A stretch of 64,000 nucleotides of DNA from Leisingera daeponensis (GTDB lineage Bacteria; Pseudomonadota; Alphaproteobacteria; Rhodobacterales; Rhodobacteraceae). The position numbers were made by a program, and so were the translations under genes. Below, piece by piece: positions 46,183-63,477 of this stretch. The first letter of the stretch is position 1. Each line of letters begins with the position of its first letter. The stretch spans positions 1-64,000 of the forward strand of contig NZ_JAHVJA010000015.1 in assembly GCF_019801465.1 (NCBI RefSeq), read 5' to 3'. Below the pieces are notes generated by a model. That model was given only the letters and a program-made list of their open reading frames with translations, had not been told where the DNA came from and made no database searches.

Positions 46183-46271
46183 TCCGCCCTCAGACCCGAC
46201 AACACACCGGGGCGCAGCTGGCCTGCGCTCCGGCCTCAGTCCTCTTGCGGGCTGACTTAGGAGATACCGCT

Positions 46272-47264: not shown

Positions 47265-47267
47265 GCG

Positions 47268-48428
47268 ATGAGTGACGCAACCCATCTGACGGGTGACCTG
47301 ACGGTAGCCGGGGCCTGCGAGCATGAGGCCCGGCTGAAGTACTATTCCGCCTCGCAATGGACGCTGATCTGGTGGCGCTTCCGCCGCCACCGCGCCGCGA
47401 TGGTTGCTGCCGCGCTGCTGGGGGTGATGGCGCTGGCCGGGATCTTTGCCGAGTTCGTAGCGCCCTACGGGCCGGTGACGCGGGACACGCAGTATATCGA
47501 AGGTGCGCCGCAAATACCGAAATTCTGCGATGCGGCCGGCTGTTCGTTCGTGCCCTTCATCAACGGCACCAAAACCGAGCGCGACCCGGTGACGCTGCGT
47601 GCGATTTCGGTGCCGGACCCGGAGGTGCGCCATTACGTGCAGTTTTACGTGAAGGGCGAGATGGTCAAGCTGCTGGGCTTTATCCCGATTGACCGGCACC
47701 TGATCGGCCTCCGCCCGGAATCCGGCCAGAAAATCCATTTCTGGGGCACAGATGATCTGGGACGGGACGTGTTCAGCCGCACGATCTATGCTACCCGCAC
47801 GTCGCTTTCGATCGGCGTGCTGGGAGTGCTGATCTCCTTTGTGCTTGCGCTGATCATCGGCGGTGCGGCCGGCTACTTGGGCGGCATGACCGACAACGTG
47901 ATCCAGCGGGCGACCGAAGTGATCCGGGTGGTGCCGATCATTCCGCTGTACATGGGGCTGGCGGCGGCGATGCCCAAGGAATGGTCGACGACGCAGGTCT
48001 ACTTTGCGATGACACTGATCCTGGGCCTTTTCGGCTGGCCGACACTGGCGCGGCGCATCCGTTCGCAGCTGCTGTCGATCCGCAATGAGGATTACGTGAT
48101 CGCGGCACGGCTGGCCGGTGCCCGGCCGGGACGGATCATCGCACAGCACATGCTGCCGGGCTTTACCAGCTTCATCATTGTCGATCTGGTGATCTCCTTT
48201 CCTTACATGATCCTGTCGGAAACCGCGCTGAGCTTTGTCGGCCTGGGCCTGCGGCCGCCGTCGGTGTCCTGGGGCGTGCTGCTGCAGCAGGCGCAATCCG
48301 TGCGCGCGATCGAGCAGACGCCGTGGCTGTTCATCCCTGCAGTTTTTGTCGTGGTGGCGGTTCTGGCCTTCACCGTGATCGGTGACGGGCTGCGCGATGC
48401 GGCAGACCCCTATGCGGAGGCAAGCTGA
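47268..48428 (+). CDS. ABC transporter permease (DppC/OppC type) with large periplasmic insertion
   Basis: 386 residues, about 90 more than DppC. The first membrane segment (AAMVVAALLGVMALAGIFAEF in the protein's start region) is followed by a loop of roughly 100 residues holding CDAAGCSFVPF. The standard core begins at HFWGTDDLGRDVFSRTIYAT. The EAA loop is EDYVIAARLAGARPGRIIAQ. The insert may contact the large binding protein. It begins 4 bases after the first permease. Confidence 0.87.
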   Translation: MSDATHLTGDLTVAGACEHEARLKYYSASQWTLIWWRFRRHRAAMVAAALLGVMALAGIFAEFVAPYGPVTRDTQYIEGAPQIPKFCDAAGCSFVPFINGTKTERDPVTLRAISVPDPEVRHYVQFYVKGEMVKLLGFIPIDRHLIGLRPESGQKIHFWGTDDLGRDVFSRTIYATRTSLSIGVLGVLISFVLALIIGGAAGYLGGMTDNVIQRATEVIRVVPIIPLYMGLAAAMPKEWSTTQVYFAMTLILGLFGWPTLARRIRSQLLSIRNEDYVIAARLAGARPGRIIAQHMLPGFTSFIIVDLVISFPYMILSETALSFVGLGLRPPSVSWGVLLQQAQSVRAIEQTPWLFIPAVFVVVAVLAFTVIGDGLRDAADPYAEAS

Positions 48429-48429
48429 C

Positions 48430-49440
48430 ATGTCCAAGATGCTGAGTGTTGAGAACCTGTCGATTTCCTTTCGCACCGACGAAGGTGTGATCACTCCGGT
48501 GAAGGGCGTCAGCTTCACGGTCGAAAAAGGCCGGACGCTGGGGCTGGTCGGAGAGTCAGGCTCGGGCAAATCGATCTCCACCAAGGCTCTAATGCAGCTG
48601 TTGCCGGGAACAGCCCGTTTGGGGGCGGCCAGCAGGATGATCTACACCGCCAAGGACGGGCAGCAGATCTCCCTGGGCAACCTGAGGCACGGCAGCAAGG
48701 AGCTGCGGCGCATCCGGGGCGGAGAGATCGGGATGATATTCCAGGAGCCGATGGCCAGCTTCTCGCCGGTCTACACCATCGGCAACCAGATGATGGAAGC
48801 CATCATGCTGCACCGCGGCCTGAAAAAGCGCGAGGCACGGCAGTTTGCCATCGGGATGCTGAACAAGGTCGGCATTTCCAATGCCGCGGCGCGGGTGGAC
48901 CAGTACCCGCATGAACTGTCGGGCGGTATGCGCCAGCGGGCGATGATCGCGCTGACCCTGTCCGCAGGCCCGGCGCTGCTGATCGCCGATGAGCCGACCA
49001 CGGCGCTGGACGTGACCATCCAGGCGCAGGTACTGGATCTGATGCGGGATTTGCAGCGGGAGCTGGGAATGGGGATGATCTTCATCACCCATGACCTGGG
49101 TGTGATTGCGCAGATTGCGGACGACGTGGCGGTGATGTACCTGGGCACAATTGTCGAGCGCGGCCCCGCCAAGGAGGTGATCCGCAACCCGCAGCACCCC
49201 TATACCCAGGGGCTGCTGGACGCGATCCCCAGTCTGGATCATCTGCACGACCGCCTGAAGCCGGTGCCCGGCGACATTCCGAGCCCCACGGCACGCCCCG
49301 GTGGCTGCCCTTTCCACACCCGCTGCACCCAGGCCATCGCGGGCACCTGTGAAGTGCATGAGCCGCCGGAAACCTCGGCAATTCCAGGCTGCGCGGTGCG
49401 CTGCTGGCTGCACACCAGCCAGGGACGGAGCGCAGCATGA
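48430..49440 (+). CDS. oligopeptide-type ABC transporter ATPase (DppD-like)
   Basis: 336 residues from ATG 48430. Walker A GESGSGKSISTKAL, Q-loop IFQEPMASFSPVYTIGNQMM, signature ELSGGMRQRAMIALTLS, Walker B ALLIADEPTTALD. The C-terminal oligopeptide-family extension has the iron-sulfur-like cysteine set GGCPFHTRCTQAIAGTCEVH. It energises import together with the next ATPase and overlaps it by 4 bases. Confidence 0.9.
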   Translation: MSKMLSVENLSISFRTDEGVITPVKGVSFTVEKGRTLGLVGESGSGKSISTKALMQLLPGTARLGAASRMIYTAKDGQQISLGNLRHGSKELRRIRGGEIGMIFQEPMASFSPVYTIGNQMMEAIMLHRGLKKREARQFAIGMLNKVGISNAAARVDQYPHELSGGMRQRAMIALTLSAGPALLIADEPTTALDVTIQAQVLDLMRDLQRELGMGMIFITHDLGVIAQIADDVAVMYLGTIVERGPAKEVIRNPQHPYTQGLLDAIPSLDHLHDRLKPVPGDIPSPTARPGGCPFHTRCTQAIAGTCEVHEPPETSAIPGCAVRCWLHTSQGRSAA

Positions 49441-50540
49441 GCAAGCACAAGGACACGCTGATCGAAGTCAGGGACCTGTCAGTTCATTTCCCGATCAAAA
49501 CCCGAAAGCTGTTCAAGACCGAAGTGCAGATGCTGCGTGCGGTGGACGGGGTGAGCTTTGACATCAAGCGGGGCGAGACGGTGGGCCTTGTGGGCGAATC
49601 CGGTTCCGGCAAGACCACCGTGGGCCGCGCCATCCTGCGTGCCATCGACCCGACGGACGGCGAGGTGATTTTTCACCGCAAGAAAAAGGGCGGCATCGAC
49701 CTGGCGCATGCCTCGGAGGCCGAGTTGCGCAAGGTCCGGTCCAAGTTGAACATGGCTTTTGGTGAAAGCGGCGGCGGCATCAAGGTGCATAACCTGGCCG
49801 ACGACCTGCTGCGGGCCTTCCGTCCGGAGATGAGCCTGGTGTTCCAGGATCCCTATTCGTCGCTGAACCCGCGGATGACGGTGCGCGATATCATTGCCGA
49901 GCCGCTGATCGCCTCCGGTAAATACAAGAACCGCGAGAAGGTCGACGCCCGGGTGCGTGAGATTGCCGCCCGCTGCAAGCTGAACCTGGAGCACCTGCGC
50001 CGCTTTCCGCATGCGTTTTCCGGCGGCCAGCGGCAGCGGATCTGCATTGCGCGGGCGCTGGTCAGCAAACCGAAGTTCGTGGTCTGCGACGAAAGCGTTT
50101 CGGCGCTGGACGTTTCCATTCAGGCCGAGATCGTGAATCTGCTGAAGGATCTGCAGGAGGAAACGGGCGTTTCCTTCCTGTTCATCGCCCATGACCTGAG
50201 TGTTGTCGCGCAGATGTCGCACCGGGTGGCGGTGCTGTATGTCGGCAAGTTGGTGGAATATGCGCCGACAGAGAAGCTCTTCTTCGCGCCCAAGCATCCC
50301 TATACCCATGCGCTGCTCAGTGCGATCCCGTCGGCTGACCCCGATGCCGGATTCGATCCGATCCGGCTGCAGGGGGAAATCCCGAACCCGCTGGCGGCGC
50401 CCTCCGGCTGCCGCTTCCATACCCGGTGCCCGTTTGCCAGGGACCGCTGCAGCGCTGAGCAGCCGGAATGGCGCGAGATTGAGCCGGATCACTTTGTCGC
50501 GTGCCACTACGCCAAGGAGTTCAATTTCAGTAGAAGCTGA
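49437..50540 (+). CDS. oligopeptide-type ABC transporter ATPase (DppF-like)
   Basis: 367 residues. Walker [17 protein letters not shown]-loop [20 protein letters not shown], signature [17 protein letters not shown], Walker [13 protein letters not shown], and the C-terminal [20 protein letters not shown]. An insertion of some 35 residues between Walker A and the Q-loop ([20 protein letters not shown] and following) is longer than in DppF. The last gene of the five-gene operon; an insertion sequence starts about 85 bases later. Confidence 0.9.
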
Positions 50541-50625: not shown

Positions 50626-51671
50626 TGACGTGCTCCCCTGAAAAGTCCGCGATTTGAAGTTAGCCTGTTCTCCAAGCGAGGAGACAGACGATGCGGAAAA
50701 GCCGTTTCAGCGAAGAGCAGATCATTGGCATCCTGAAGGAGCACCAAGCCGGAATGGGGGCGAAGGAACTGTGCCGGAAGCACGGCATCAGCGATGGCAC
50801 TTTCTACAAATGGCGTTCGAAGTATGGCCGCATGGATGTGTCCGAGGCCAAGAGGCTGAAGGCTCTGGAGATCGAGAACGCCAAGCTCAAGAAGATGTTG
50901 GCCGAGCACATGCTTGATGTGGCCACGCTGAAGGAAATGCTGGGAAAAAACTTTTGAAGCCCGGTGCAAGGCGGAGAGCCGTGGACTGGGCCATGACAGA
51001 GAAGAACTACAACCAGCGGCGGGCCTGTGCCCTGGCCGGGATCGATCCGCGCGTCTATCGGCGTGGATCAACCAGGCCTGCGGACGCCGAGTTGCGAGAG
51101 AGGCTGAAGGAGCTGTCCAGCGAACGGCGGCGCTTCGGCTATCGTCGGCTGCACCTGCTGCTCGGCCGCGAGGGCTGGAAGGTGAACTGGAAGAAGCTCT
51201 ACCGGATCTTCCGCGAAGAGGGGCTGAGCGTGCGCAAGCGCGGCGGGCGGAAACGCGCCATCGGGACGCGTGCGCCCATGGCGATCCCGCAAGGGCCGAA
51301 CCAGAGATGGTCGCTGGACTTCGTCTCGGACAGCCTGCCCGATGGCCGCCGATTCCGGGTGCTATGCGTCATAGATGACTTCAGCCGGGAATGCCTGGCC
51401 GCGGTCGTGGACACCTCACTCTCCGGTCAGCGGGTTGCCCGTGAGCTCGATAATATCGCCCGAACGCGTGGCTATCCCTGCATGGTGGTCAGCGATAATG
51501 GGACCGAACTGACGTCGAATGCCATTCTGAAATGGCAGGAAGACCGGAAGGTCGAGTGGCACTACATCGCGCCAGGCAAGCCCATGCAGAACGGCTTTGT
51601 CGAAAGCTTCAACGGCCGCCTCCGGGACGAGTGCCTGAACGAGCACTTGTTCGCCAACCTGCGCTACGCCA
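50626..51671 (+). mobile_element. IS3-family insertion sequence, 3' end missing
   Basis: The left end starts about 50626 (TGACGTGCTCCCCTGAAAAG), 65 bases before OrfA. OrfA and OrfB follow in the -1 relation. The 3' end of OrfB, the right inverted repeat and the second target repeat are absent. From about 51665-51672 the sequence becomes the antisense of a YeiH-like gene. A deletion next to the element has removed both the end of the element and the rest of that gene. Confidence 0.75.
50691..50957 (+). CDS. IS3-family transposase OrfA
   Basis: 88 residues. Helix-turn-helix [46 protein letters not shown], then a leucine-zipper-like coiled coil ([20 protein letters not shown]). It binds the element ends. 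A slippery A6C run near 50943-50951, just before the stop, would allow -1 frameshifting to make the OrfAB fusion transposase. Confidence 0.88.
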
Positions 51672-51858
51672 AAACGCAACACGCTGCGCACGGTGAAGTC
51701 GATGCCTGCGCGACAAGTCTCTTCCGCGCTGAGAAACTGCAGCGCGATGCCGAGGAGCAGTGCCATCAGCATTGCAGGCGCGCCATAGTGTCCCGAAGTA
51801 AACTGCGCGGCGACGGCCACGACAATAGACACCAGAACACCCCGCGCACGGGACCGTA
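50954..51858 (+). pseudogene. IS3-family transposase OrfB, 3' truncated
   Basis: The catalytic domain is read as far as [12 protein letters not shown] (about 51671) and then runs into unrelated sequence up to a stop at 51859. The DDE triad is visible: D in [13 protein letters not shown] in [12 protein letters not shown] and E in [14 protein letters not shown]. The last 40 or so residues found in intact copies (the AAWRxDYNxxRPHSSL region) are missing. It starts at TTG 50954 in the -1 frame to OrfA. Confidence 0.8.
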
Positions 51859-51907
51859 GGACCTGTACCGGATCGATACTTCCAAATTGGACAACCGGCT
51901 GGTACAT
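51672..51907 (-). pseudogene. YeiH/UPF0324 putative sulfate/sulfite exporter, N-terminal fragment
   Basis: About 78 codons from ATG 51907. The fragment has [40 protein letters not shown] and [18 protein letters not shown], the N-terminal membrane segments of the YeiH family (putative sulfate exporter; some members are named TauZ in sulfonate clusters). It is cut by the insertion-sequence remnant. It lies downstream of the HisD-like gene on the same strand, so it was the last gene of the cysteate operon. An anion exporter is what a desulfonating pathway needs to remove sulfite or sulfate. Confidence 0.75.
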
Positions 51908-52015
51908 ATTCGTTTTTCCGGTTTCCTGGTGGCAATGAAGGACTGTTCGGCGACGTCGTTTCAGATTGACGTCCCCGTTTTCGAGATTCGCTGGCCTGGA
52001 AGGCGCGCGAGGGTG

Positions 52016-53281
52016 TTAGCTCAGACGCAGTTCCGCCGCCCGGGCATGACCCTCCATGCCTTCCATCCGGCTGATCCGCGCTGTGCGCAGCGCCAGTTCA
52101 TGAGACGCTGCTGCATTGCTGCGTTGCCAGGTGACGGTCTTGGTAAACTTGTGCACCGACAAGCCGCCAGTATAGCGTGCCGCGCCACTGGTGGGCAGGA
52201 CATGGTTCGGGCCGGAGGTCTTGTCACCGAAGGACACCGTGGTTTCTTTGCCCAGAAACAGCGAGCCATAAGCGGACAGACGGTCCAGCCACCAATCGAG
52301 ATCTTCGGCTTGGACCTGCAGGTGCTCGGGAGCGTAGCGGTCACTGACTTGGGCTGCTTCTTGACGGCTGTCGCAATGGATGACTTCGGCGCGATCTGCC
52401 CAGGCCTGGCGAGCAGCCGACTGGTTGGGCTCCGGCAGCTGGCTGATCAGGCCCTCCGCACGGGCCATGACACCTTCGGCAAGGTTCCGGCAGGTTGTGA
52501 CCAGCCAGACGGGGCTGTCGGCACCGTGTTCCGCCTGGCTGACCAGATCCCAGGCAACCGTTTCGACCTCAGCGGTATGGTCGGCAATGACGAGCGAGTC
52601 CGTCGGCCCGGCGAACATGTCGATCCCCACTTCTCCAAACAGCATCCGCTTGGCCTCGGCGACATACGAGTTGCCCGGGCCGACCAGAATATCGGCGGGT
52701 TTGGCCCCAAACAGGCCCTCGGCCATGGCGGCAATGGCCTGTATCCCTCCCAAGTTGAGGATCAGATCCGCACCGCACAGATCCATCGCATAGATGATCG
52801 CATCCGGTATGCCGGTTTCCGGCCGGGTTGGCGAAACTGCCGTAATATGTTTGACTCCGGCCACTTTGGCGGTGGTGATCGTCATCAGAGCGCTGGCAAT
52901 ATGGCTGTAGCGGCCGCCAGGCACATAACAGCCGGCGCTGGAGACCGGTATCTGCTTCTGGCCTGCGATAAGGCCCGGAATGACTTCAATCTCGCACTCC
53001 GCCATCGTCGCTTTCTGGGCTTCAGCAAAACGGCGGATATTGGCATGCGCGAACTGAATATCGTCCTTCAGCTCCTGCGAGACGCGAGCACAGGCGGCCG
53101 CCCGGTTTTCGTCGGACAGCACGATGTCGCCAGTCCAGCCGTCCAATTGTTCTGCATAGCGCCTAACGGCCTCTTCGCCCTCACGTTCGATGTTGGCTAG
53201 CATGACAGAGACAAGGTCTCGAATGTCGCTGTTTTCCGCCTCAGGCCGCGGGGCGGCCTTTTTCAGGTAGGTAATTGCCAT
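52016..53281 (-). CDS. histidinol-dehydrogenase-family enzyme (HpsN-like)
   Basis: 421 residues from ATG 53281. HisD fold with all key parts: GCYVPGGRYSHIASALMTIT, VGPGNSYVAEAKRMLFGEVG, zinc ligands in SQAEHGADSP and YAPEHLQV, and NHVLPTSGAARY. HisD enzymes oxidise a primary alcohol to a carboxylate in two NAD steps. In roseobacters a close relative, HpsN, converts dihydroxypropanesulfonate to sulfolactate. Placement with cysteate sulfo-lyase and not with his genes argues against histidine biosynthesis. Likely substrate is a C3 sulfonate alcohol such as cysteinolate (the sulfonate analogue of histidinol) or dihydroxypropanesulfonate. Confidence 0.85.
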   Translation of the reverse strand: MAITYLKKAAPRPEAENSDIRDLVSVMLANIEREGEEAVRRYAEQLDGWTGDIVLSDENRAAACARVSQELKDDIQFAHANIRRFAEAQKATMAECEIEVIPGLIAGQKQIPVSSAGCYVPGGRYSHIASALMTITTAKVAGVKHITAVSPTRPETGIPDAIIYAMDLCGADLILNLGGIQAIAAMAEGLFGAKPADILVGPGNSYVAEAKRMLFGEVGIDMFAGPTDSLVIADHTAEVETVAWDLVSQAEHGADSPVWLVTTCRNLAEGVMARAEGLISQLPEPNQSAARQAWADRAEVIHCDSRQEAAQVSDRYAPEHLQVQAEDLDWWLDRLSAYGSLFLGKETTVSFGDKTSGPNHVLPTSGAARYTGGLSVHKFTKTVTWQRSNAAASHELALRTARISRMEGMEGHARAAELRLS

Positions 53282-53285
53282 TGGA

Positions 53286-53987
53286 TCAGCTCGCTTCGTT
53301 GGTGATGTGGCTGTGAATTGCAGAGGCCAGAACATCGACAGTGTCGATGAAAGGCACTTCCGCGATCAAATCATGAGACATCAGGGAAAATTCGGAGCAG
53401 GCGATGAACAGCATGTCCGCGCCTTTCCGGGTCAGTTCGGCTGCCGCGTCCGCCAGAATGCTCCGCGCTTCCGGCACCGGGCCTGCCGCCTTGACCATCT
53501 TGATGGCAATCAGCATCTTATCGATATCTTCGGGCCAAAGCGCTGAAAATTTGTCGGTTTTCAACGCATCCTCAAAAACACGCGAGAAATAGACGGCGGG
53601 AGAGGCTAGGATGCCGATCTTGCTCTTTGGACTTAAGCGGCGTGCGGCGGCGCCGACAGAGAGTGTCACCATATTGAGCAAGGGCACTGTAGTCTTAACG
53701 GAAATGTAAGGCACATAGTGATGGGCCGTGTTGCAAGGCATGGCCAGCGCAGTAGCCCCCGCATCTTCCAGCCTCTGAGCCATTTCGGCCAGAACAGGGC
53801 CGGGGCTTTCACCTCGTTTCTCAATCAGATGCGCAATCCGCGAGGGAACCTGCGGGTTCATGTCAATCAACAGCGGCAGGTGGTCCGCGTCATCATGCGC
53901 ATCGACTTTCTTCAGCAGTCGCTGTTGCAGAAGAATGGTGGCTTCCGGCCCCATGCCGCCTAAGATTCCAACGACGCGGCGCGTCAT
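53286..53987 (-). CDS. aspartate/glutamate racemase family protein
   Basis: 233 residues. Both catalytic cysteines are present (ALAMPCNTAHHYV and ADMLFIACSEFSL), with the phosphate-loop-like start RVVGILGGMGPEATILLQQR. Family members racemise acidic amino acids. Cysteate is the sulfonate analogue of aspartate, so a cysteate racemase role is attractive. It overlaps the DegT gene (ATGA) and ends 4 bases before the HisD-like gene. Confidence 0.87.
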   Translation of the reverse strand: MTRRVVGILGGMGPEATILLQQRLLKKVDAHDDADHLPLLIDMNPQVPSRIAHLIEKRGESPGPVLAEMAQRLEDAGATALAMPCNTAHHYVPYISVKTTVPLLNMVTLSVGAAARRLSPKSKIGILASPAVYFSRVFEDALKTDKFSALWPEDIDKMLIAIKMVKAAGPVPEARSILADAAAELTRKGADMLFIACSEFSLMSHDLIAEVPFIDTVDVLASAIHSHITNEAS

Positions 53988-55189
53988 GACGTTACCTCAT
54001 CCACCGCTTCGCAGATCAGCTCGGAAATGAAGGCGCAGTCACCTGTGCTGAAGGTCAACGGCAAGCGCATATCAAACAGCGTGGCCAGCACACTGTCGGT
54101 GCGCGGTAAGAGCTGGGCGTCCATATAGCGCCAGCTTTGGTGGGCCGAAGTGAAGCCAACAGGCTCAGATCCTCCAAACCACTTCAACTCGACACCGCGC
54201 TTTGCTGCAGCGGCCAGCAAGGCTTGGCATTGCGCAGCGCCGAAACCCGGCAGGCGGAACTGGATTGACGACCCCACCGGTGTTTCCGCAGCAGGGCGCG
54301 CAATGGTTTTGATCCGGTCTGAAATTGCAAGACCTTGATCGGTAGCGGCATAGAGCGCGTTCCAGGCGCTTATGCTTTCTTCGATCCGGGCCAGTTGCGG
54401 GCGCAGAATAGCCGCGCGAAGGGCATCCATCCGGGCGGAACAGTTTGGCATCTGATAGCGGGCTTCAGCAAATGTCCCAGGTACAGGACCAGCGCCGTGA
54501 CGCTCATACAGCATGTAGCTGCCCGACAAGATCGTCGCACGAGCGGCGATCCCGGCGTCATCAGTGGTCAGAAACCCGCCTTCGCCCGAGTTCATGTGTT
54601 TGTATGTCTGTGTCGAGAAACAAGCGGCCTTCCCGAAGTTCCCCGACCGTTTCCCGTTCCAGCGCGCCCCCATCGTGTGGGCACAATCCTCGATCACCGT
54701 GATCCCGGCACTGTCGCAGATACGCATGAGGGCTTCCATGTCGCACAGGTGACCGCGCATATGGGACAGCAATAGAAAACGCGCACTGGTCCGGGCAATC
54801 TTTCGTTCAAGGTCTCCGAGGTCCAGACGCAGGTTTTCGTTGATTTCCACGAGTGCGGCTCGGCCGCTGACAGCGGCGATGGCACCCGGCACCGGGGCTA
54901 GCGTGAAGGCATTGGTCAGAACAACATCACCCGGTTCAACGCCGCAGGCGCGCATGGCGATCTGCAAGGCCTGGCCGCCCGAGGTGACCGCGAGGCAATA
55001 AGAGCTGCCTTGCCAGTCGCGGTATTCGGCCTCCAGTGCCGCCACGTCGCCGGTTTCACCCGGCAACAGATTGTAGCGGTGCAGCCGGCCGCTTTCCAGT
55101 ACGGACATCGCGGCCTGCATCGCCTCAGCAGGCAAAGCTGCCTGCTGCGTAAAAGCTCCGGTGAATTTGCGGGCCACGATGTCCCCCAT
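53984..55189 (-). CDS. DegT/DnrJ/EryC1-family PLP aminotransferase
   Basis: 401 residues from ATG 55189; two bases separate it from cuyA. Pyridoxal-phosphate fold with LAVTSGGQALQIAMRACGVE, the cofactor Asp in VIEDCAHTMGARW and the Schiff-base lysine in FSTQTYKHMNSGEGG. Most of the family aminate keto-sugars, but it also contains enzymes with other substrates. Here it could interconvert an amino-sulfonate and its keto form (for instance cysteate/sulfopyruvate or cysteinolate/sulfo-aldehyde). The specific partner is not evident. Confidence 0.85.
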   Translation of the reverse strand: MGDIVARKFTGAFTQQAALPAEAMQAAMSVLESGRLHRYNLLPGETGDVAALEAEYRDWQGSSYCLAVTSGGQALQIAMRACGVEPGDVVLTNAFTLAPVPGAIAAVSGRAALVEINENLRLDLGDLERKIARTSARFLLLSHMRGHLCDMEALMRICDSAGITVIEDCAHTMGARWNGKRSGNFGKAACFSTQTYKHMNSGEGGFLTTDDAGIAARATILSGSYMLYERHGAGPVPGTFAEARYQMPNCSARMDALRAAILRPQLARIEESISAWNALYAATDQGLAISDRIKTIARPAAETPVGSSIQFRLPGFGAAQCQALLAAAAKRGVELKWFGGSEPVGFTSAHQSWRYMDAQLLPRTDSVLATLFDMRLPLTFSTGDCAFISELICEAVDEVTS

Positions 55190-55191
55190 GA

Positions 55192-56205
55192 CTACAGGTT
55201 GACCCAACGGTTTGCGTGATCAAAGGCGAAGTCATACCCGCCCAGAGCTGCTGCGCCGCCGGTATGCAGGAACACCACTCGCTCGTCTTTGAACACCCCC
55301 TTGCGGGCCAGATCGATCAGCCCGGCCGCACCCTTGGCAGAATAGCAGGGGTCAAGCAGGATGCCCTCAAGCTCGGCAAACATTCGAATTGCTTCGATGC
55401 CGCTGTCGGTTGGCAGGCCATAACCCTCACCGACGTAGTCGGTGTTGGCCATCACGTCTTCGCGCTTGACTACGCCTTGGCAACCCAGTTTTTCAGCGGT
55501 CTTGCAGGCGAGGTCATAGACCATCTGTTCCTGTTTCGGCTGGGGCGCCCGTGTTCCGATGCCCAGCACGGGGATTTGGCTGTTCATGGCACACATGCCG
55601 GTTACAAGCCCTGCCTGGGTGCCAGACGATCCGGTCGCATGCACGACCCGGTCGATTTTCAATCCGGCATCATTGGCTTGGGACAGCAGCTCAAATGCGC
55701 AATTCACGTAGCCAAGAGCACCGGTCGGATTGGATCCGCCGCCGGGAATAACATAGACCTTATGGCCCTTGGCACGCATTTTTTCGGCTGCGCGTTCCAT
55801 CTCGGCGGGCATGTCGTGGCCTCCGGGGAACTTTTCGGTCGTGGCGCCATGCAAGTGGTCCAGCAGCACGTTTCCGTTGGAGTTATAGTTGCCGTCCTGG
55901 TACCCGGTCCGGTCCTCCAGCAGGATATGGCATTTCAGCCCCAGCTTTGCGGCAAATGCAGCTGTCTGGCGGCCGTGATTGGTTTGGGTCGCACCTTGCG
56001 TCATCACCATATCCGCACCTTGTTCCAGAGCCTCGGCCATCAGGAATTCAAGCTTGCGGGTCTTGTTGCCGCCAGTCGACATACCGGTGCAGTCGTCACG
56101 TTTGATCCAGAGATCAACCCCCAGCTCCTTGGACAAGCGTTTCATGGGCTCCAGCGGTGTGGACAAATGAGCGAGGTGCACCCGGGGAAAGCGGGAGAGA
56201 TGCAT
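55192..56205 (-). CDS. cuyA: L-cysteate sulfo-lyase (CuyA), D-cysteine-desulfhydrase family
   Basis: 337 residues. The pyridoxal-phosphate fold type II N-terminus [20 protein letters not shown] and [20 protein letters not shown] with the cofactor lysine (GNKTRK), then [40 protein letters not shown] and [17 protein letters not shown]. The sequence is close to what is known of CuyA from Ruegeria, which splits L-cysteate to pyruvate, ammonium and sulfite. D-cysteine desulfhydrase or ACC deaminase are the alternatives in the family. Neighbours (HisD-like, racemase, YeiH fragment) support sulfonate use. The end of the upstream regulator gene overlaps its first 92 bases. Confidence 0.85.
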
Positions 56206-57199
56206 GGCATGATCCTTGATTTTCAGAGGTAAGTTGATGCCGGTACGGGCCTACAGACAGTTGAACCCGCCGCTTGGAAGGGGAAATCCCGAATTCCAGG
56301 ATGTATCTTTTTGCGAAGCTCGATGGGCTTCCAAAACCGCAGGCCACGGAAATTTCGGTAATGGGCAATACGGTCTGTTCAACCAGAGCTTTCGCGCGGC
56401 GTAAGCGCAAAAACCTATAATATGATGCAGGACTCCGGCCAATTAGAGCTTTGAACTTGCGTTCCATCTGACGAACGGAAAAACCTGCAATTTCCGCCAG
56501 TTCTGCTATCGAGAGGGGGGTCTCGAGTGCGTTTTCCATGGCGGCGATGATGGGTTCGAGTTTGCCGTGGCGCAGGGACATCACATCATTTTCGCTGCGC
56601 GGCTGACTGGCCGCGCCATCACGAATGTCGCCTATCAAAAGCACATGTGCGACAGATTGGGCCAGGTACAGCGAATGCGGTGCCACGATCCGCGTCAACA
56701 CTAAATCCGCTGTTGACGCCATGCCGGCCCCCGTCGCGACTTGCGCTTTCTGAGTAAACAAGGGCAAACGGCTCTCGGTCGAGCTTCCTGCGTCCCTGTC
56801 CACCTGCAGGTTTTCCCAATGGGTGGTAATGTGATCTGTATCGGGATGCAGGCATTTCCACTCGGCTGCAGCGTCGGACAGCAGTGTGAGTCCGACTCCC
56901 ATGCGCTCCATCAAGGACAAACGTCCTTTGAGGCCACGGAAGGCCGAGCGAATGCCCGCCCCGCCCAAGACCAGAAGATGGTCTGGCAGGGCGGTGCAGC
57001 CGGTCTGGAATGGGACGGCACGCACCAAGCTGCCCCCCAATCCTTCAACCAGCCTGTCATCCTGTGCCGTGCAAACCTGATGTTCAAAGCGGACACCGGA
57101 CCCAAGCCGTGTGGCGATGCGCAGAACATCAACCACCAACGCCAGCTCGGTCGGGACAAAACCTTGCTCTGCCAGGATTGTGACACGGACGGCCTTCAT
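56114..57199 (-). CDS. GlxA-family transcriptional regulator with C-terminal read-through
   Basis: 361 residues from ATG 57199, 7 bases after the demethylase stop. The DJ-1/PfpI-type domain ([40 protein letters not shown]) precedes AraC helix-turn-helices ([40 protein letters not shown]). GlxA proteins normally end soon after GISPSKRR. Here another 45 residues of low-similarity sequence run 92 bases into cuyA in a different frame, so a stop codon was probably lost. A regulator placed inside the operon suggests autoregulation of the whole unit. Confidence 0.85.
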
Positions 57200-57206
57200 G
57201 ACTGGA

Positions 57207-59642
57207 TCAACCGCGCATCAGTTCGTAGCTGGGGTCATAGGGCGACGGAGCGATGACTTCGACCTCTACCATGTCGCCATACATATCCAGCTGCATCCTG
57301 TTGCCTTCGCCCGCCAGCTGCGGTTCGACAAAGGCATAGGCCAGATTCATGCCCACCCGGTGCCCCCAGTCGCCGGAGGTCACGGTACCCACGACCTTGC
57401 TGCCTTGCATCAACGAGGCACCGCCATGGGCCGGAGCATGGGTTGCGTCCACTTTCAGAGTGACCAGCTTTTTGCGAAGGCCCTCTTCCCTACGTTTCAG
57501 CAGGGCCCCTTTGCCAATGAAATCGCCCTTGTCGATCTTCACGAAACGATCCAGCGAGGTCTCATAGGGGTCGAATTCGGTAAGAATGTCGGCCTTCCAG
57601 TGCAGGAAACCTTTTTCCATACGCATCGATTCCACCGCCCTTGCACCGAACAGTTTGAGGCCATGGGCTTCTCCTGACTCGCGCAATGCGAGATAGGCAG
57701 CATAGAGCGAGGCATTGGGGATGTGGATTTCGTAGGCCAGTTCACCCGAAAAGCTGACGCCCATCACCGTGGCGGGCGCAAACCCGATGAAACATTCGCG
57801 GACGGACAGCCAGGGAAAGGCCTCTTTGGACCAGTCTCCGCGGGCGCAGCCCGAAAGCACATCGCGCGCCTTCGGACCTGCCAGAACCAGGATGGTCTGT
57901 TCATTGGTCAGCGAGCGGATCTGGACGTCCTCGTCTTCACCGATGTGCTGGGTCAGCCAGTCCATGTCGTGGTATTCGCTGGCGGCAGCAGAACCGTACC
58001 AGACCCGCGCAGGACCACGGTCCGACGCAGGCAGGTTGGCCACCGTGGCCTCGCCTTTGACCATACCGTGGTGGTTCAGCAAATAGCCCAGGCCAACGCG
58101 GCCGTCGCGCTTGGTGACAGTGCCGCAAAACATGCGGTCAAGGAAGCTATGGCGGTCGGCGCCGGTGATCTCGAACCGGTTGAAGCCGTTGACTTCGCAC
58201 AGGCCGACATTTTCCTGCACGTTCTTCACATCATCTGCAACGATGCCAAAGGCTTCGTCGAAGTTGAAGCTAAGCGTGGGATGGAACTCAGGAGACGGCT
58301 TGATGTAGTCCATCCGCTCCCAGCCGTTCACAACGGTGAACTCGGCCCCTTCGGCGGCAAGAATCGGCGTCAGAGGGGTTGTTTTGGCTGGGCGTCCGGC
58401 GGGGCGGTGCTCATGGGGGAAATGGAACCGGAATTCGTTCTGGTAGTCTTCAATCGCCTTAAGCGAGGTCAGTTCGACGTTGGTGTGGCCGGTGAACCGG
58501 CGCGGGTCAATGCACCAGGTGTCATAGCAGGCTTCGCCATGCACGATCTGCTGCGCCAGCAGCCAGCCGTGACCGCCGCCTTCACCCAGACCTGCCCGCA
58601 ACCCGATAATGCAGAAGGCGTTGCGCTTGCCCGGGATCGGCCCCACGAGCGGCGCGCCGTCGATGGTATAGGTGATCGGGCCGTTGACGATGGAGCGGAT
58701 GCCGGTCTCTTCCAGTGCAGGCATTCTTTCGAAGGCGCCGGCCAGCACGTCCATCACGCGGTCCAGGTCGTCCGGGCACAAGGCATTCACAAAATTCGGG
58801 TCGATGCCGTCCATGCCCCAGGTTTTGCAATCCTGCTCATAGAACCCGACAAGCAACCCGCCTTTCTCCTGCCGGCTGTAGTAGTCACTGATCGGGCAGC
58901 GCAGCAGCGGCATCCGGTGCCCGGCTTCGGCAATCCCCGGCATATCCTCGGTGAGGAAGTATTGGTGCTCCATCGAAGCCACGGGGTGGTGAACACCCAT
59001 CATCGCCGCCACTTCGTTCACGCGGTATCCGCAGGCATTGACAACGATGTCGCAATCGATGCCCCCTTGTTCGGTATGCACGGTCCAGGTGTCATCCTTG
59101 TGCTGGGTCAGTGCGGTGACAGGCGTGTTGCGGTAGACCTCGGCACCGGCCTTGCGCGCGTGATAGGCCAGCGCTTGGCAAAGCTGCGCCGGATCAATGT
59201 CGCCATCCAGCGGGTCCCAAAGCCCGCCCAGCAGGTTCGCGGTCGAAATCAGCGGGTGGCGGCGGGCGCATTCTTCGGCATCGATCACTTCAAAATCGGC
59301 CCCCATCCCCCGCGCCATCGAAGCGAAGTGGCGGTAGCCCTGCATCTGCGCTTCAGTATTCGCTAGGCGGATTCCGCCGTCGGCATGATGATAGTTGATC
59401 GGATATTCAGGGCTCTCGGAGAGTTCTTTATACAGATTGATCGAATGAGTCTTGAGGCCCACCATGGTTTGGTTCATGCCGAAGTTCGTCACCTGTGCCG
59501 CTGAATGCCAGGTGGTGCCGCTGGTCAGTTCGTTGCGTTCGACCAGAACGACGTCGCTCCAGCCTTCCTGAGTAAGGTGGTAGAGAGTGGAGCAGCCGGC
59601 GATGCCGCCGCCGATAACCACAACTTTGGTGCGGGATTTCAT
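57207..59642 (-). CDS. dimethylglycine/sarcosine-dehydrogenase-type FAD and folate demethylase
   Basis: 811 residues from ATG 59642. The N-terminal FAD domain (KVVVIGGGIAGCSTLYHLTQ) has the GTTWHSAAQV segment whose His covalently holds FAD in this family. The C-terminal half is a GcvT-like folate domain (EVNGFNRFEITGADRHSFLD; GFLHWKADILTEFDPYETSL). Such enzymes oxidise an N-methyl group and pass the one-carbon unit to tetrahydrofolate, giving methylenetetrahydrofolate. The first gene of the minus-strand operon that continues with GlxA and cuyA, and divergent to mttB. The methyl donor may be dimethylglycine, sarcosine or an N-methylated sulfonate. Confidence 0.88.
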   Translation of the reverse strand: MKSRTKVVVIGGGIAGCSTLYHLTQEGWSDVVLVERNELTSGTTWHSAAQVTNFGMNQTMVGLKTHSINLYKELSESPEYPINYHHADGGIRLANTEAQMQGYRHFASMARGMGADFEVIDAEECARRHPLISTANLLGGLWDPLDGDIDPAQLCQALAYHARKAGAEVYRNTPVTALTQHKDDTWTVHTEQGGIDCDIVVNACGYRVNEVAAMMGVHHPVASMEHQYFLTEDMPGIAEAGHRMPLLRCPISDYYSRQEKGGLLVGFYEQDCKTWGMDGIDPNFVNALCPDDLDRVMDVLAGAFERMPALEETGIRSIVNGPITYTIDGAPLVGPIPGKRNAFCIIGLRAGLGEGGGHGWLLAQQIVHGEACYDTWCIDPRRFTGHTNVELTSLKAIEDYQNEFRFHFPHEHRPAGRPAKTTPLTPILAAEGAEFTVVNGWERMDYIKPSPEFHPTLSFNFDEAFGIVADDVKNVQENVGLCEVNGFNRFEITGADRHSFLDRMFCGTVTKRDGRVGLGYLLNHHGMVKGEATVANLPASDRGPARVWYGSAAASEYHDMDWLTQHIGEDEDVQIRSLTNEQTILVLAGPKARDVLSGCARGDWSKEAFPWLSVRECFIGFAPATVMGVSFSGELAYEIHIPNASLYAAYLALRESGEAHGLKLFGARAVESMRMEKGFLHWKADILTEFDPYETSLDRFVKIDKGDFIGKGALLKRREEGLRKKLVTLKVDATHAPAHGGASLMQGSKVVGTVTSGDWGHRVGMNLAYAFVEPQLAGEGNRMQLDMYGDMVEVEVIAPSPYDPSYELMRG

Positions 59643-59833: not shown

Positions 59834-61357
59834 ATGGCTGGACAGCGTGGAAAAAGAGGTGGACGCCTTGAGCGTCTGGCGCAGCGAGCGGCAAAGCCTG
59901 CAGTGGACCCGTGCCCCCCTGGCCAGATTGGCGGCACATACAAACCACTCAGCGATTCTGATTTACGGCGCATATACGATACTGCGCTCGACTTGCTCGA
60001 AAAACTCGGCATCGGCGAAGTGCCGGACAGACTGCACGCTGATTTGCTGGCCATTGGTGCCATCGACAATGGCAAAGGACGGGTCCTGTTCCCGCCAGCA
60101 TTGGTCGAAGAGGCAATTGATCAGGCTGCCAAGACCTTTACCCTGCATGGCCGCGACTCGGAACGCTCGATCGAGGTCGGTGGCAACAAAGTGTACTTCG
60201 GCACCGGTGGCGCGGCTGTACAGACGCTGGATATGGACAGCGGGATCTACCGCCCGTCCACTCTGGAAGATCTTCATGACTTCACACGGCTTCAGGACAC
60301 GCTGGCCAATGTCAGCTGGTTCACGCGTTGCTGTGTGGCGACTGACGTGCCCGACAACTACGACTTGGACGTCAACACTGTTTTTGCGCTGCTGAAAAAC
60401 ACCACCAAGCCGACCGCAACATCCTTCACCCTGGCGGAATATGTCGCCCCGATCGTCGAAATGCTGGATATCGCGGCAGGCGGACCGGGAGAGTTTTCCA
60501 AGCGCCCCTTCATGAAGGCCCATATCAGCCCGATGATCTCGCCGATGCGCTATGGCGAGGATGCGGTCGACGTTGTCTATGAATGCATCAAGCACAACAT
60601 TCCGATTTCCTGCATCACCGCCGCGCAGGCGGGGGCGACCGCACCTGCCACATTGGCCGGCTTTCTGGCGCAGTCGCTTGCCGAAACTCTTGGCAGCCTG
60701 CTGATGGTACACGCCATTCAGCCCGGCTATCCCATGGTGTTCTCCAACTGGCCGCTGGTGATTGACCTGCGCACCGGCGCGTTTTCCGGGGGCAGCGGTG
60801 AGACGGCAGTGCTGAACGCGGCTTCGGCGCAGCTGTCGAACTGGCTGGGCTTGCCGTCAGGGGTGGCCTGTTCGATGACTGACGCCAAGGCCATTGATGC
60901 TCAGTACGGCATGGAAAAAGGCATCACGTCGATAGCGGCGGCGCTGGCGGGCGGGAACCTGATCTATGAAAGTTCCGGCATGACCGCATCTCTGTTGGGG
61001 GCAAGTTTCGAGGGCTTTGTTCTGGATGACGAAATGCACTCGAACACTTACCGCGCACTACGCGGGATCGAGGTGACAGATGAGAATCTGGGGTTCGAGG
61101 CCATTTGCAACGCTGTTCTGGAAGAGGGCCATTTTTTAGGCGGTCAGCACACATACGCCGCGATGGAGCGCGACTACTTCTATCCAACACTTGCAGACCG
61201 CAACGAACCGCGCACATGGGCTGAAAACGGAGCTCAGGATGCCTGGGGGCGTGCCAAGACCAAAGCCCGTGAGATATTGAGCAGCCACAACCCGGCCTAT
61301 CTTACCCCACAGCAAGAGCAGGAAATCCGGTCCCGGTTCAACATCCTAGTGTCCTGA
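59834..61357 (+). CDS. MttB-family (trimethylamine/betaine) methyltransferase, non-pyrrolysine type
   Basis: 507 residues. The MttB superfamily barrel has FTRLQDTLANVSWFTRCCVA, AHISPMISPMRYGEDAVDVV, VHAIQPGYPMVFSNWPLVID and QHTYAAMERDYFYPTLADR near the end. There is no in-frame amber codon, so pyrrolysine is not used; such homologues (MtgB and relatives) act on glycine betaine or other quaternary amines and normally pass the methyl to a corrinoid protein. No corrinoid protein gene is seen. It is divergent to the folate-linked demethylase and followed by a betaine-type transporter. Confidence 0.88.
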   Translation: MAGQRGKRGGRLERLAQRAAKPAVDPCPPGQIGGTYKPLSDSDLRRIYDTALDLLEKLGIGEVPDRLHADLLAIGAIDNGKGRVLFPPALVEEAIDQAAKTFTLHGRDSERSIEVGGNKVYFGTGGAAVQTLDMDSGIYRPSTLEDLHDFTRLQDTLANVSWFTRCCVATDVPDNYDLDVNTVFALLKNTTKPTATSFTLAEYVAPIVEMLDIAAGGPGEFSKRPFMKAHISPMISPMRYGEDAVDVVYECIKHNIPISCITAAQAGATAPATLAGFLAQSLAETLGSLLMVHAIQPGYPMVFSNWPLVIDLRTGAFSGGSGETAVLNAASAQLSNWLGLPSGVACSMTDAKAIDAQYGMEKGITSIAAALAGGNLIYESSGMTASLLGASFEGFVLDDEMHSNTYRALRGIEVTDENLGFEAICNAVLEEGHFLGGQHTYAAMERDYFYPTLADRNEPRTWAENGAQDAWGRAKTKAREILSSHNPAYLTPQQEQEIRSRFNILVS

Positions 61358-61365
61358 CTCCGGCA

Positions 61366-62340
61366 TCAGTCTACCAGTTTGAAGCTGTCGGAAAGCCATG
61401 GCATATGCTGAATCTGCGCTGAAATAACCTGTTCGCGAAGTAAGCTCCGCATTTTGCTGTCAATCAGTTCCAGAACTGATCTGGAGCAATCGGGTGTCGC
61501 GACAACGGCCAATGTGCGTGAAAAACTCTTGCCTGGAAAGCGGTGCATCGTCAGTTTTTGTTGGAATCGTTTTGCCCGTGAAAACAGCAGGGGGGTAGTG
61601 ATGGTCCATCCGGCCCCTGCTGCGACCATGGCCATCAGTGTCTGGTTGTTGCTGCATTCGAAATTGGAAGGAGCCGTCAATCCCAGACGCCGCATCTGCG
61701 ATTCAATCTGCCGTGCTATGATGAGGTTGCTTGAAAACCGCAAGAACGGCAGTTTGGTGCGTCCCTCGACAATTTCCGCCAGAGAATGCTCACTGAAGCG
61801 CGGAAGGACTACAACAAACGGATCTCGCAGTAATGGACGGTCCTGCAAGTCACGCAGCTTTTCATCCGGCGTGGTCGTAATCCCCAAATCGAGATGCCGG
61901 TTGCGCAGCATCTCGATAATCGCGTGACTGGAATCCGTTTGGTACATGAAGTCACAGGACGACATGTTTCTCGACAGGAAGACTGCCAGTTCCGGTATGA
62001 TATCGCTGTCGAAATCCTCAATCGTGCCGATCCTCAGATAACTTGCGTCTGCAATACTTCCAGCCGAGGCTTCGGCCTTGGCCTTGCGAATAGCGTACAA
62101 CGCGTCATCAATGTTGCGTAGAAAAGCCTGTCCCTTCGGGGTTAGCACCATCGGCCTGCGGGAGTGGTTAAACAACTCGACCCCAAGGTGATCCTCCAGA
62201 TTGCGCAGATGATGAGACACGGTACTGATGGTCAGGCCGGTTTCCTCGGATGCCGCCTGAAGCGATCCTTTCTGTGCGCATATCTGAAAGAGCTCCAGCC
62301 ACTTGAGGCTGAGATCTTTAGGGGCTGAATGACGGGGCAT
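61366..62340 (-). CDS. LysR-family transcriptional regulator
   Basis: 324 residues from ATG 62340. The helix-turn-helix reads LELFQICAQKGSLQAASEET, GLTISTVSHHLRNLEDHLG, and the effector domain follows. The gene ends 8 bases after mttB (convergent) and is divergent to proX. A palindrome at 62402-62418 between them is its likely site. It probably controls uptake of the quaternary amine. Confidence 0.87.
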   Translation of the reverse strand: MPRHSAPKDLSLKWLELFQICAQKGSLQAASEETGLTISTVSHHLRNLEDHLGVELFNHSRRPMVLTPKGQAFLRNIDDALYAIRKAKAEASAGSIADASYLRIGTIEDFDSDIIPELAVFLSRNMSSCDFMYQTDSSHAIIEMLRNRHLDLGITTTPDEKLRDLQDRPLLRDPFVVVLPRFSEHSLAEIVEGRTKLPFLRFSSNLIIARQIESQMRRLGLTAPSNFECSNNQTLMAMVAAGAGWTITTPLLFSRAKRFQQKLTMHRFPGKSFSRTLAVVATPDCSRSVLELIDSKMRSLLREQVISAQIQHMPWLSDSFKLVD

Positions 62341-62401
62341 GTAATCTCTCTTTCTTAAGATCTGCATCACACAAATCTTATATTTTGATAATAATGTTCA
62401 T

Positions 62402-62418
62402 AATTGATCGTATCAATT
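62402..62418. promoter_or_regulatory. palindrome, probable LysR operator
   Basis: AATTGAT CGT ATCAATT: 7-base arms around a 3-base centre, which places T and A at the T-N11-A distance typical of LysR boxes. It lies between the LysR gene and proX. Confidence 0.55.
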
Positions 62419-62514
62419 GAATATTTGTCTTCCATGTCAGGAAGCTGTGGGAGCGTTGCAAATCACGGCAGATTGGGCCTCTGGCGGCGCCAGGCCAAAA
62501 TTTGGGAGGAAAAA

Positions 62515-63477
62515 ATGAAGAGACTGCTTTTGACATCCGCGTTTGCCATGGGCCTTGCTGCGCCTGCTTGGGCCGAAGGCTGCGGTGACGTGACAATCAC
62601 GCAAATGGATTGGGCGTCAGCAAACGTGGTTACTTCGGTTGCGAAATTCCTGATGGAACAGGGTTACGGTTGCACTGTCACAACTGTTCCCTCCTCGACA
62701 CCGACAGCTTTGACGTCGGTGGCCGAAACCGGCACGCCGGATATCCTGACCGAGCTGTGGGTCAATACCGCTCCGGCCTATGCAAAACTGGTCGCAGACG
62801 GCAAGCTGGTCGAACTGGCTGACGTCCTGTCGGATGGTGGGATCGAAGGCTGGTGGGTGCCGCAGTATGTGGTTGATGCGCACCCCGAAGCGGCAACCTT
62901 GGATGGCATTCTGGCCAACCCCGATCTCGTCGGCCGCCGGTTTGACAATTGCCCGGATGGCTGGGGCTGCCGAACCGTCAATGACAACATGAACCGTGCC
63001 ATTGATATGGAGAGCAAGGGGATCGAGGTGTTCAATCACGGATCGGGCGAAACGCTGGCCACGGCTATCGCGGCGGCCTATGCAGACCAGAAACCCTGGT
63101 TCGGTTTCTATTGGGCTCCAACCGCTGTTCTGGGCAAATACCCGATGGTCCTAGTTGATATTGGCGTGCATGATGCTGAAACGCATACCTGTAACGGCTC
63201 CAACGACTGTGCAGAACCAGGAGTCTCAGCCTATCCGAGTGCGGCGGTCAAAACGGCTGCGACAGCCGATTTTCAGCAGCGCGAACCTGCAATCGCCGAA
63301 TTGATGTCGAACATTTCTTTCACCAACGACCAGATGAACGGGGTGCTCGCCTGGATGGAAGACAACAATGCCTCTGCCGAGGAAGGCGCTGTGTACTTCC
63401 TGACAAACAACAAGGATCAGTGGAGCGACTGGCTGAACGACGACGCCCGCTCAAAGCTGTCCGCGATCCTGAAATAA
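62515..63477 (+). CDS. proX: glycine-betaine/choline-type ABC transporter substrate-binding protein
   Basis: 320 residues from ATG 62515, with GGGAGGA before it. A signal peptide (MKRLLLTSAFAMGLAAPAWA) is followed by the OpuAC/ProX fold: ITQMDWASANVVTSVAKFLM, PDILTELWVNTAPAYAKL, KPWFGFYWAPTAVLGKYPM. Aromatic residues in the last motif are of the cation-pi type used to bind quaternary amines. Cysteines CNGSNDC may form a disulfide. The permease gene follows after 75 bases. Confidence 0.88.
   Translation: MKRLLLTSAFAMGLAAPAWAEGCGDVTITQMDWASANVVTSVAKFLMEQGYGCTVTTVPSSTPTALTSVAETGTPDILTELWVNTAPAYAKLVADGKLVELADVLSDGGIEGWWVPQYVVDAHPEAATLDGILANPDLVGRRFDNCPDGWGCRTVNDNMNRAIDMESKGIEVFNHGSGETLATAIAAAYADQKPWFGFYWAPTAVLGKYPMVLVDIGVHDAETHTCNGSNDCAEPGVSAYPSAAVKTAATADFQQREPAIAELMSNISFTNDQMNGVLAWMEDNNASAEEGAVYFLTNNKDQWSDWLNDDARSKLSAILK

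Follow-up and report, generated by a model that had tools for sequence, protein, structure and literature searches.

A survey of dinoflagellates, haptophytes, and diatoms detected cysteinolic acid in all groups of these algae that it covered, at levels that can match those of dimethylsulfoniopropionate (PMC8703288). No catabolic gene set for cysteinolate (2-amino-3-hydroxypropanesulfonate) was found in the literature searched, which mostly did not cover subscription papers, and a published pathway is possible. The closest described systems act on cysteate and on dihydroxypropanesulfonate (DHPS). In Ruegeria pomeroyi, the genes for cysteate utilization are cuyA, cuyR, and cuyZ, a set made up of a CuyA sulfo-lyase gene, a regulator gene, and a gene for a sulfite exporter (PMC4334477). 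CuyB is described as a racemase acting between L- and D-cysteate, the D form being the one preferred by CuyA (PMC11382572, citing other work). A DHPS route through HpsN, SlcD, and CuyA has also been described, whose aminotransferase and racemase steps have no assigned genes in R. pomeroyi (PMC11382572); the HpsN enzymes assayed prefer R-DHPS (PMC11382572, PMC11131964). In this study, we analyzed a stretch of 64,000 nucleotides from Leisingera daeponensis (positions 1 to 64,000 of contig NZ_JAHVJA010000015.1; hereafter, the window), which carries a gene cluster for CuyA, CuyB, an HpsN-type dehydrogenase, and a DegT-family aminotransferase. We propose, with moderate confidence, that this cluster is a catabolic operon for cysteinolate, here probably imported in N-methylated form.

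The core of the cluster is a minus-strand run of four genes, intact and contiguous in the open reading frames (ORFs) of the window and joined by junctions of few bases. The genes encode CuyA, D-cysteate sulfo-lyase (55192..56205; NCBIfam NF052482, 529.9 bits at a cut-off of 450; Pfam PALP, 194 bits), a DegT-family aminotransferase of the group found with CuyA/CuyB (53984..55189; Pfam DegT, 184 bits; ORF from TTG at 55207), CuyB, cysteate racemase (53286..53987; NCBIfam NF052483, 267 bits at a cut-off of 190; Pfam Asp_Glu_race, 125 bits), and a HisD-fold dehydrogenase, proposed here to be a cysteinolate dehydrogenase (52016..53281; Pfam Histidinol_dh, 439 bits; ORF readable from 53335). The start sites of the DegT, HisD, and DMGDH genes were taken from the gene models of plasmid NC_023136 of Leisingera methylohalidivorans, which has the identical gene order and a full-length exporter gene. 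In the window, the putative sulfite/sulfate exporter of the YeiH family (PF03601) is a remnant of the first 93 codons (51629..51907, minus strand); residues 1-93 (68% to the Leisingera protein) are left of a full length of approximately 340 residues. It is adjoined, and partly overlapped in antisense, by an IS3-family transposase (orfB-like) remnant (50954..51859, plus strand; NF033516, residues 8-242 of 301). A second YeiH homologue (61%) lies at C3:264649 of the genome. An earlier note on this DNA had described four consecutive parts in one operon plus DegT, with the exporter removing sulfite. The contiguity of CuyA, DegT, CuyB, and the HisD-fold gene stands; an intact exporter does not.

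The dehydrogenase matches the TIGR00069 hisD model above its cut-off (431.7 bits), as would be expected if it were a histidinol dehydrogenase or acted on a non-sulfonated amino alcohol. Among PDB chains, however, the best scores were those of 8wwe ((R)-DHPS dehydrogenase; 549 bits) and 8v35 (sulfopropanediol 3-dehydrogenase; 502 bits), approximately twice those of the histidinol dehydrogenases (243 bits at most). Presumably, 8wwe is the Ruegeria HpsN described in PMC11131964 and 8v35 the Cupriavidus HpsN described in PMC11382572. The zinc-site, catalytic, and sulfonate-contact residues of HpsN are retained in the window dehydrogenase, and its GRYSH corresponds to the HpsN motif G-R-Y-[AS]-H. 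The sulfonate contacts are His126 and Lys353, according to the residue roles given for HpsN (PMC11382572). Both are kept in all 49 rows tested of proteins encoded near cuyA or cuyB (cuy-linked), the window among them, versus Leu and Tyr in histidinol dehydrogenase 6an0. A G-S-A-P-L motif, with mostly Leu at position 126, is the histidinol dehydrogenase signature (PMC11382572); the window protein has His at this position and so departs from the HisD type. By its sequence, the enzyme is of the HpsN type and not a histidinol dehydrogenase. The latter reading, which we regard as most improbable, was set aside because of His126/Lys353 and the HpsN chain scores. The protein thus shares with 8wwe and 8v35 the family, the zinc-site and catalytic residues, and His126/Lys353; it differs in that genes of its type adjoin CuyA/CuyB instead of HpsO/HpsP and TRAP transporter genes, and that the cuy-linked proteins mostly fall in another part of the tree than 8wwe. 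L-cysteate inhibits CpHpsN with an IC50 of 2.4 mM and was co-crystallized in the active site as a product mimic (PMC11382572); therefore, the HpsN fold can hold the proposed product, cysteate. The string "cysteinol-" is absent from the available text of that paper. Oxidation of the CH2OH group of cysteinolate to yield cysteate would parallel that of histidinol to histidine in the same fold.

CuyA of the window is the sole match in the genome at E ≤ 1e-20. The possibility that it acts on D-cysteine or 1-aminocyclopropane-1-carboxylate (ACC) instead of cysteate is raised by its membership of the D-cysteine desulfhydrase/ACC deaminase superfamily (TIGR01275, above the cut-off). Against this, the CuyA model gave the best match, and no other equivalog model among those listed exceeded its cut-off; those for D-cysteine desulfhydrase and ACC deaminase both fell short. 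The gene is also linked to cuyB. Activity on D-cysteine or ACC is thus considered very improbable, and the D-cysteine desulfhydrase reading was set aside. The earlier note had the racemase convert D- to L-cysteate and CuyA cleave the L form. This direction should be reversed: because CuyA is named D-cysteate sulfo-lyase in NCBIfam and is described as preferring D-cysteate (PMC11382572), racemization by CuyB probably runs from L- to D-cysteate. L-cysteate is R-cysteic acid, an analogue of R-sulfolactate (PMC11382572). If the R preference of HpsN holds, the dehydrogenase product would therefore be L-(R)-cysteate, and CuyB would be required ahead of CuyA. D-cysteinolate, which is presumably the S form, would give D-cysteate directly if accepted. 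Like the R. pomeroyi cuyA, cuyR, and cuyZ set (PMC4334477), the window has genes for a CuyA sulfo-lyase, a regulator, and a sulfite exporter (here truncated); unlike that set, it also has CuyB, the HpsN-type dehydrogenase, DegT, and demethylation genes.

The conservation of this gene neighborhood was surveyed in 143 annotated loci: 80 CuyB loci (the best 80 of at least 577 confirmed in the GTDB set), 4 plasmid loci (of 11 matches), 16 DegT loci, 3 loci of the L. daeponensis genome itself, and 40 HisD loci. The HisD-anchored loci comprised 20 of the most similar new matches and 20 chosen lower down, two of which (G104 and G021) were chosen for a nearby DegT gene, and are not a random sample. 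HisD homologues were counted when at least 330 residues were aligned, which gave 79 proteins of 60-92% identity to the window protein (those of L084 and L259 are identical). Genes were considered linked within 9 kb, with cuyA at ≥60% identity or cuyB for cuy linkage, and hpsO at 45% or hpsP at 40% for hps linkage; the limits for other neighbors were ≥50% for DegT, ≥60% for DMGDH, and ≥50% for MttB.

Of the 79 HisD homologues, 49 had both CuyA and CuyB in their neighborhood. The three genes were always on a single strand, and in 46 of these loci no gap of more than 250 bases or opposite-strand gene interrupted the recognized genes between them (exceptions, L079, L106, and L122). The 49 loci are not a random sample (29 were found via CuyB and 7 via DegT); the tight packing spans Rhodobacterales, Hyphomicrobiales, and one metagenome-assembled genome (MAG) labelled Thioglobus. 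The grouping exceeds chance. This common strand and packing across several lineages argue against two independent functions, in which CuyA/CuyB would use cysteate from the medium and the HisD-like enzyme and the demethylase would act on a different sulfonate. Such a division, which would suit the presence of a HisD homologue at only 31 of the 80 CuyB loci and the C5 copy of the same genome with DMGDH, HisD, and a taurine-family binding protein in the absence of cuy genes, is judged unlikely. HisD and CuyB are neighbors in three loci (L258, L120, and L134) that have no nearby CuyA match at 60%; one of them, L258, also has a class-III aminotransferase.

Linkage to cuy genes and linkage to hps genes did not coincide at any locus. 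Fifty-three of the 79 HisD homologues were cuyA/cuyB-linked, 14 were hpsO/hpsP-linked, 12 were neither, and none was both; the corresponding numbers among the 40 HisD-anchored loci were 15, 14, 11, and 0 (exclusivity, p = 0.0003). No CuyA or CuyB match of any identity was found within 9 kb of the 14 hps-linked genes, and no hpsO or hpsP at the set limits within 9 kb of the 53 cuy-linked genes, with one weaker SDR match (32%) in L060. TRAP transporter genes were present at 0 of 53 cuy-linked versus 9 of 14 hps-linked loci. The binding proteins of the cuy-linked loci were of the TauA type (20), the glycine-betaine type (5), or a second taurine-like type (8), and none was found at the other 20. 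As a positive control, the gene order of the hps-type loci (LacI regulator, TRAP transporter, HpsN, SDR, and MDR) agrees with SPO0590-SPO0596 of R. pomeroyi (PMC4334477). Two genomes, G193 and G286, each carry one cuy-linked copy and one separate hps-linked copy (L042/L284 and L257/L283, respectively; L283 with HpsP only). In one further locus (L278, G123:C1), DMGDH and MttB genes directly adjoin an hpsNOP cluster.

The L. daeponensis genome has no close match to HpsP or to the SlcD-like FMN_dh protein, HpsO not having been searched genome-wide. HpsP was matched at 32% at best. For SlcD, the query was an FMN_dh protein, a neighbour-derived proxy and not the R. pomeroyi sequence, and its best match was 42%. 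The sole Ldh_2 protein of the genome scored 186 bits with the sulfolactate dehydrogenase model (cut-off 500). These results bear on the published DHPS route, which would apply here if HpsN formed R-sulfolactate, another enzyme oxidized it to sulfopyruvate, and DegT were the missing aminotransferase giving L-cysteate for CuyB and CuyA. Like the cysteinolate operon proposed here, this route places an HpsN-type enzyme and CuyA within one scheme (PMC11382572), and the family of the dehydrogenase, the described HpsN-SlcD-CuyA sequence with its unassigned aminotransferase and racemase, and the position of DegT between CuyA and CuyB all speak for it. Against it stand the lack of a close HpsP or SlcD match in the genome (SlcD by proxy), the cuy-linked loci that have no DegT nearby (below), the absence of hpsO/hpsP at the set limits near the 53 cuy-linked genes, and the separate cuy- and hps-linked copies in G193 and G286. 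We consider the DHPS route rather unlikely. CuyA requires an amino acid, and an amino alcohol as dehydrogenase substrate is favored over the passage from DHPS via sulfolactate to CuyA because of the missing HpsP/SlcD matches, the cuy-linked loci with no DegT, and the absence of loci with both linkages.

The tree of HisD homologues (83 rows) agrees with this distribution. Fifty of the 54 cuy rows, the window included, fall in one 64-row group (support 100/99), and the main hps group comprises 11 rows, 10 hps rows and 8wwe (support 94/18). The cuy/hps label changed 4 times on the tree versus a mean of 13.1 after shuffling, and none of 500 shuffles was as low. The split is not clean: L274, which has only HpsO nearby, is placed within the 64-row group as the partner of the long-branched 8v35, and the hps rows L263 and L264 are unplaced. 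Since near-relatives make labels cluster, the tree shows association rather than function. Residues were compared between 49 of the 54 cuy rows (all but L039, L102, L122, L137, and L279) and 14 hps rows (without L274, with 8wwe). In a search for positions that could mark a pocket specific for cysteinolate, nine alignment columns differed between the groups at 80% conservation, one of which (357) is near an active-site loop; this is not decisive.

DegT was missing within 9 kb of 28 of the 53 cuy-linked HisD genes. DegT is therefore unlikely to be an obligate step, and the dehydrogenase substrate most simply already carries the amino group. Among PDB entries, DegT is closest in sequence to 3-amino-5-hydroxybenzoate synthase, perosamine synthase, and scyllo-inositol transaminase, so that cysteinolate or 3-hydroxy-2-oxopropanesulfonate seems a more likely substrate than an alpha-keto acid. 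In a quick tree, the cuy-linked DegT proteins formed an 18-row group (support 81) largely apart from the DegT that is widespread in the family (251 of its 295 genomes at E ≤ 1e-60). Three Marivita loci (L096, L115, and L129) have DegT with CuyA/CuyB and no HisD. A link between DegT and SalA of SAL, an aminolipid of cysteinolic acid, was also considered. A SalA candidate from the L. daeponensis genome, the HX5D acyltransferase L293, was present (≤1e-80) in 219 of the 251 DegT-positive and 4 of the 44 DegT-negative genomes, the latter taken as the complement of the listed positives. Its sole NCBIfam match at E ≤ 1e-15 was OlsF, below the cut-off, and neither DegT nor an aminotransferase is among the 37 gene groups unique to SAL producers in the part of PMC8319176 consulted. 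This link was not relied on, the candidate being unconfirmed, a second HX5D protein (L292) existing, and a shared lineage being possible. A scan of viral contigs for DegT gave nothing useful. Elsewhere, locus L052 (G269:C1) combines DegT with DMGDH, MttB, LysR, and a betaine-type ABC transporter, with no CuyA, CuyB, or HisD match in the stretch.

The comparative evidence fits best a route close to the core idea of the earlier note, namely oxidation of cysteinolate followed by racemization and CuyA cleavage, with an HpsN-type in place of a HisD-type enzyme. The betaine-type ABC transporter would import the compound, and the MttB-family protein and the DMGDH-like demethylase would strip N-methyl groups to give cysteinolate. 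The HpsN-type dehydrogenase would use two NAD+ to turn the CH2OH group into COO-. The (L-)cysteate formed would be converted by CuyB to D-cysteate, which CuyA would cleave to pyruvate, ammonium, and sulfite. Sulfite would leave through a YeiH-type exporter; the copy here is truncated, but the other homologue of the genome may take its place. The probable role of DegT is transamination of cysteinolate or of the corresponding keto compound.

Several observations weigh against this reading. At the ten positions named for HpsN that were compared, the cuy- and hps-linked proteins do not differ, save for a K at 248 in one cuy row, so that DHPS and cysteinolate cannot be told apart as dehydrogenase substrates from them. 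Four cuy-linked proteins (L039, L102, L122, and L137) lie outside the main group of the tree, and L122 forms a sister pair with the hps row L270. A cluster of 34 CuyA proteins has been reported among the neighbors (ten reading frames) of 272 HpsN genes (PMC11382572, section 2.8); these 272 were kept from 1000 sequences as those near hpsO and hpsP families, under the broad criteria PF13561 and PF00107/PF08240. Hence, cuyA and hpsNOP are not exclusive everywhere, and because of these 34 neighbors our confidence in the cysteinolate operon was lowered slightly and that in the DHPS route raised slightly. DegT has no sure role, and at the 28 loci that lack it nearby a DegT gene may lie elsewhere in the genome. 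The exporter is broken in the window. DMGDH is found within 9 kb of 10, and MttB of 5, of the 53 cuy-linked HisD genes. MttB proteins need a corrinoid partner, and the only B12-binding_2 match found in the genome is located elsewhere (C1:296082-296303, in a 247-residue frame).

Upstream of CuyA, the cluster extends through an AraC-family regulator weakly like GbdR of choline metabolism (56114..57199, minus strand; 124 bits, under the GbdR cut-off of 480), a DMGDH-like demethylase with FAD oxidase and GcvT domains (57207..59642, minus strand; ORF readable from 59789), an MttB-superfamily protein (59834..61357, plus strand), a LysR-family regulator with relatives in several comparable clusters elsewhere (61366..62370, minus strand), and the OpuAC substrate-binding protein of a betaine-type ABC transporter (62404..63477, plus strand), whose permease and ATPase genes continue to contig position 65669. 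Because demethylation and betaine-uptake genes adjoin the core, the substrate in the window may be N-methylated cysteinolate. These genes share with glycine betaine uptake and demethylation the DMGDH-like, MttB-superfamily, and ProXWV/OpuA-type ABC memberships and their adjacency, and differ in adjoining sulfonate cleavage genes. Pyrrolysine MttB genes carry an in-frame TAG; the MttB gene here is an open frame of 507 codons, and its product scored 346.7 bits with TIGR02369 (pyrrolysine trimethylamine methyltransferase), under the cut-off of 525. Two DMGDH-like genes of this type occur in the genome, one in the window and one on C5; their products share 87% identity, each gene adjoins one of the HisD type, and the next paralogue is at 40%. 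One of the cuy-linked loci with demethylation genes is on a low-coverage MAG contig (L103) labelled Candidatus Thioglobus, a gammaproteobacterium. On a Paracoccus plasmid, a DMGDH-like gene, ETF, FolD, PurU, and a Rieske oxygenase pair surround CuyA-DegT-CuyB-HisD and could handle the removed methyl groups.

We propose a core module of HisD, CuyB, and CuyA with exchangeable uptake and demethylation modules; most cuy-HisD loci, which have no demethylation genes, would use cysteinolate itself. As a tentative extension, the window operon might degrade quaternary N-methylated cysteinolate (cysteinolate betaine) in a single pathway that couples betaine-type demethylation with cleavage of the C-S bond, with DegT interconverting cysteinolate and 3-hydroxy-2-oxopropanesulfonate. 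If so, a cysteinolate betaine osmolyte would exist in the sea and be consumed by roseobacters, and perhaps by Thioglobus relatives; among the papers listed in a literature search on sulfonate betaines, none mentions a cysteinolic betaine term. The HisD-CuyB-CuyA module is a directly testable gene set and would account for the presence of a racemase beside the dehydrogenase. It also cautions that counts of HpsN-type genes, where these serve as DHPS markers in ocean data, may in part reflect a different sulfonate.

Three other loci of the genome were noted. At C5:200500-219500 (L035), DMGDH, a taurine-family ABC transporter, LysR, and HisD form a cluster with no cuy genes, and the DMGDH match contains one in-frame TAG. 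On C1 (L036:8331-9524), a DegT of the widespread kind adjoins a phosphoglycolate-phosphatase-like gene, near GlmU- and GlmS-like frames as judged by eye. In the window, separated from the operon by the IS remnant, positions 44122-50540 encode an oligopeptide-type ABC transporter (a binding protein, two permeases, and two ATPases, by eye).

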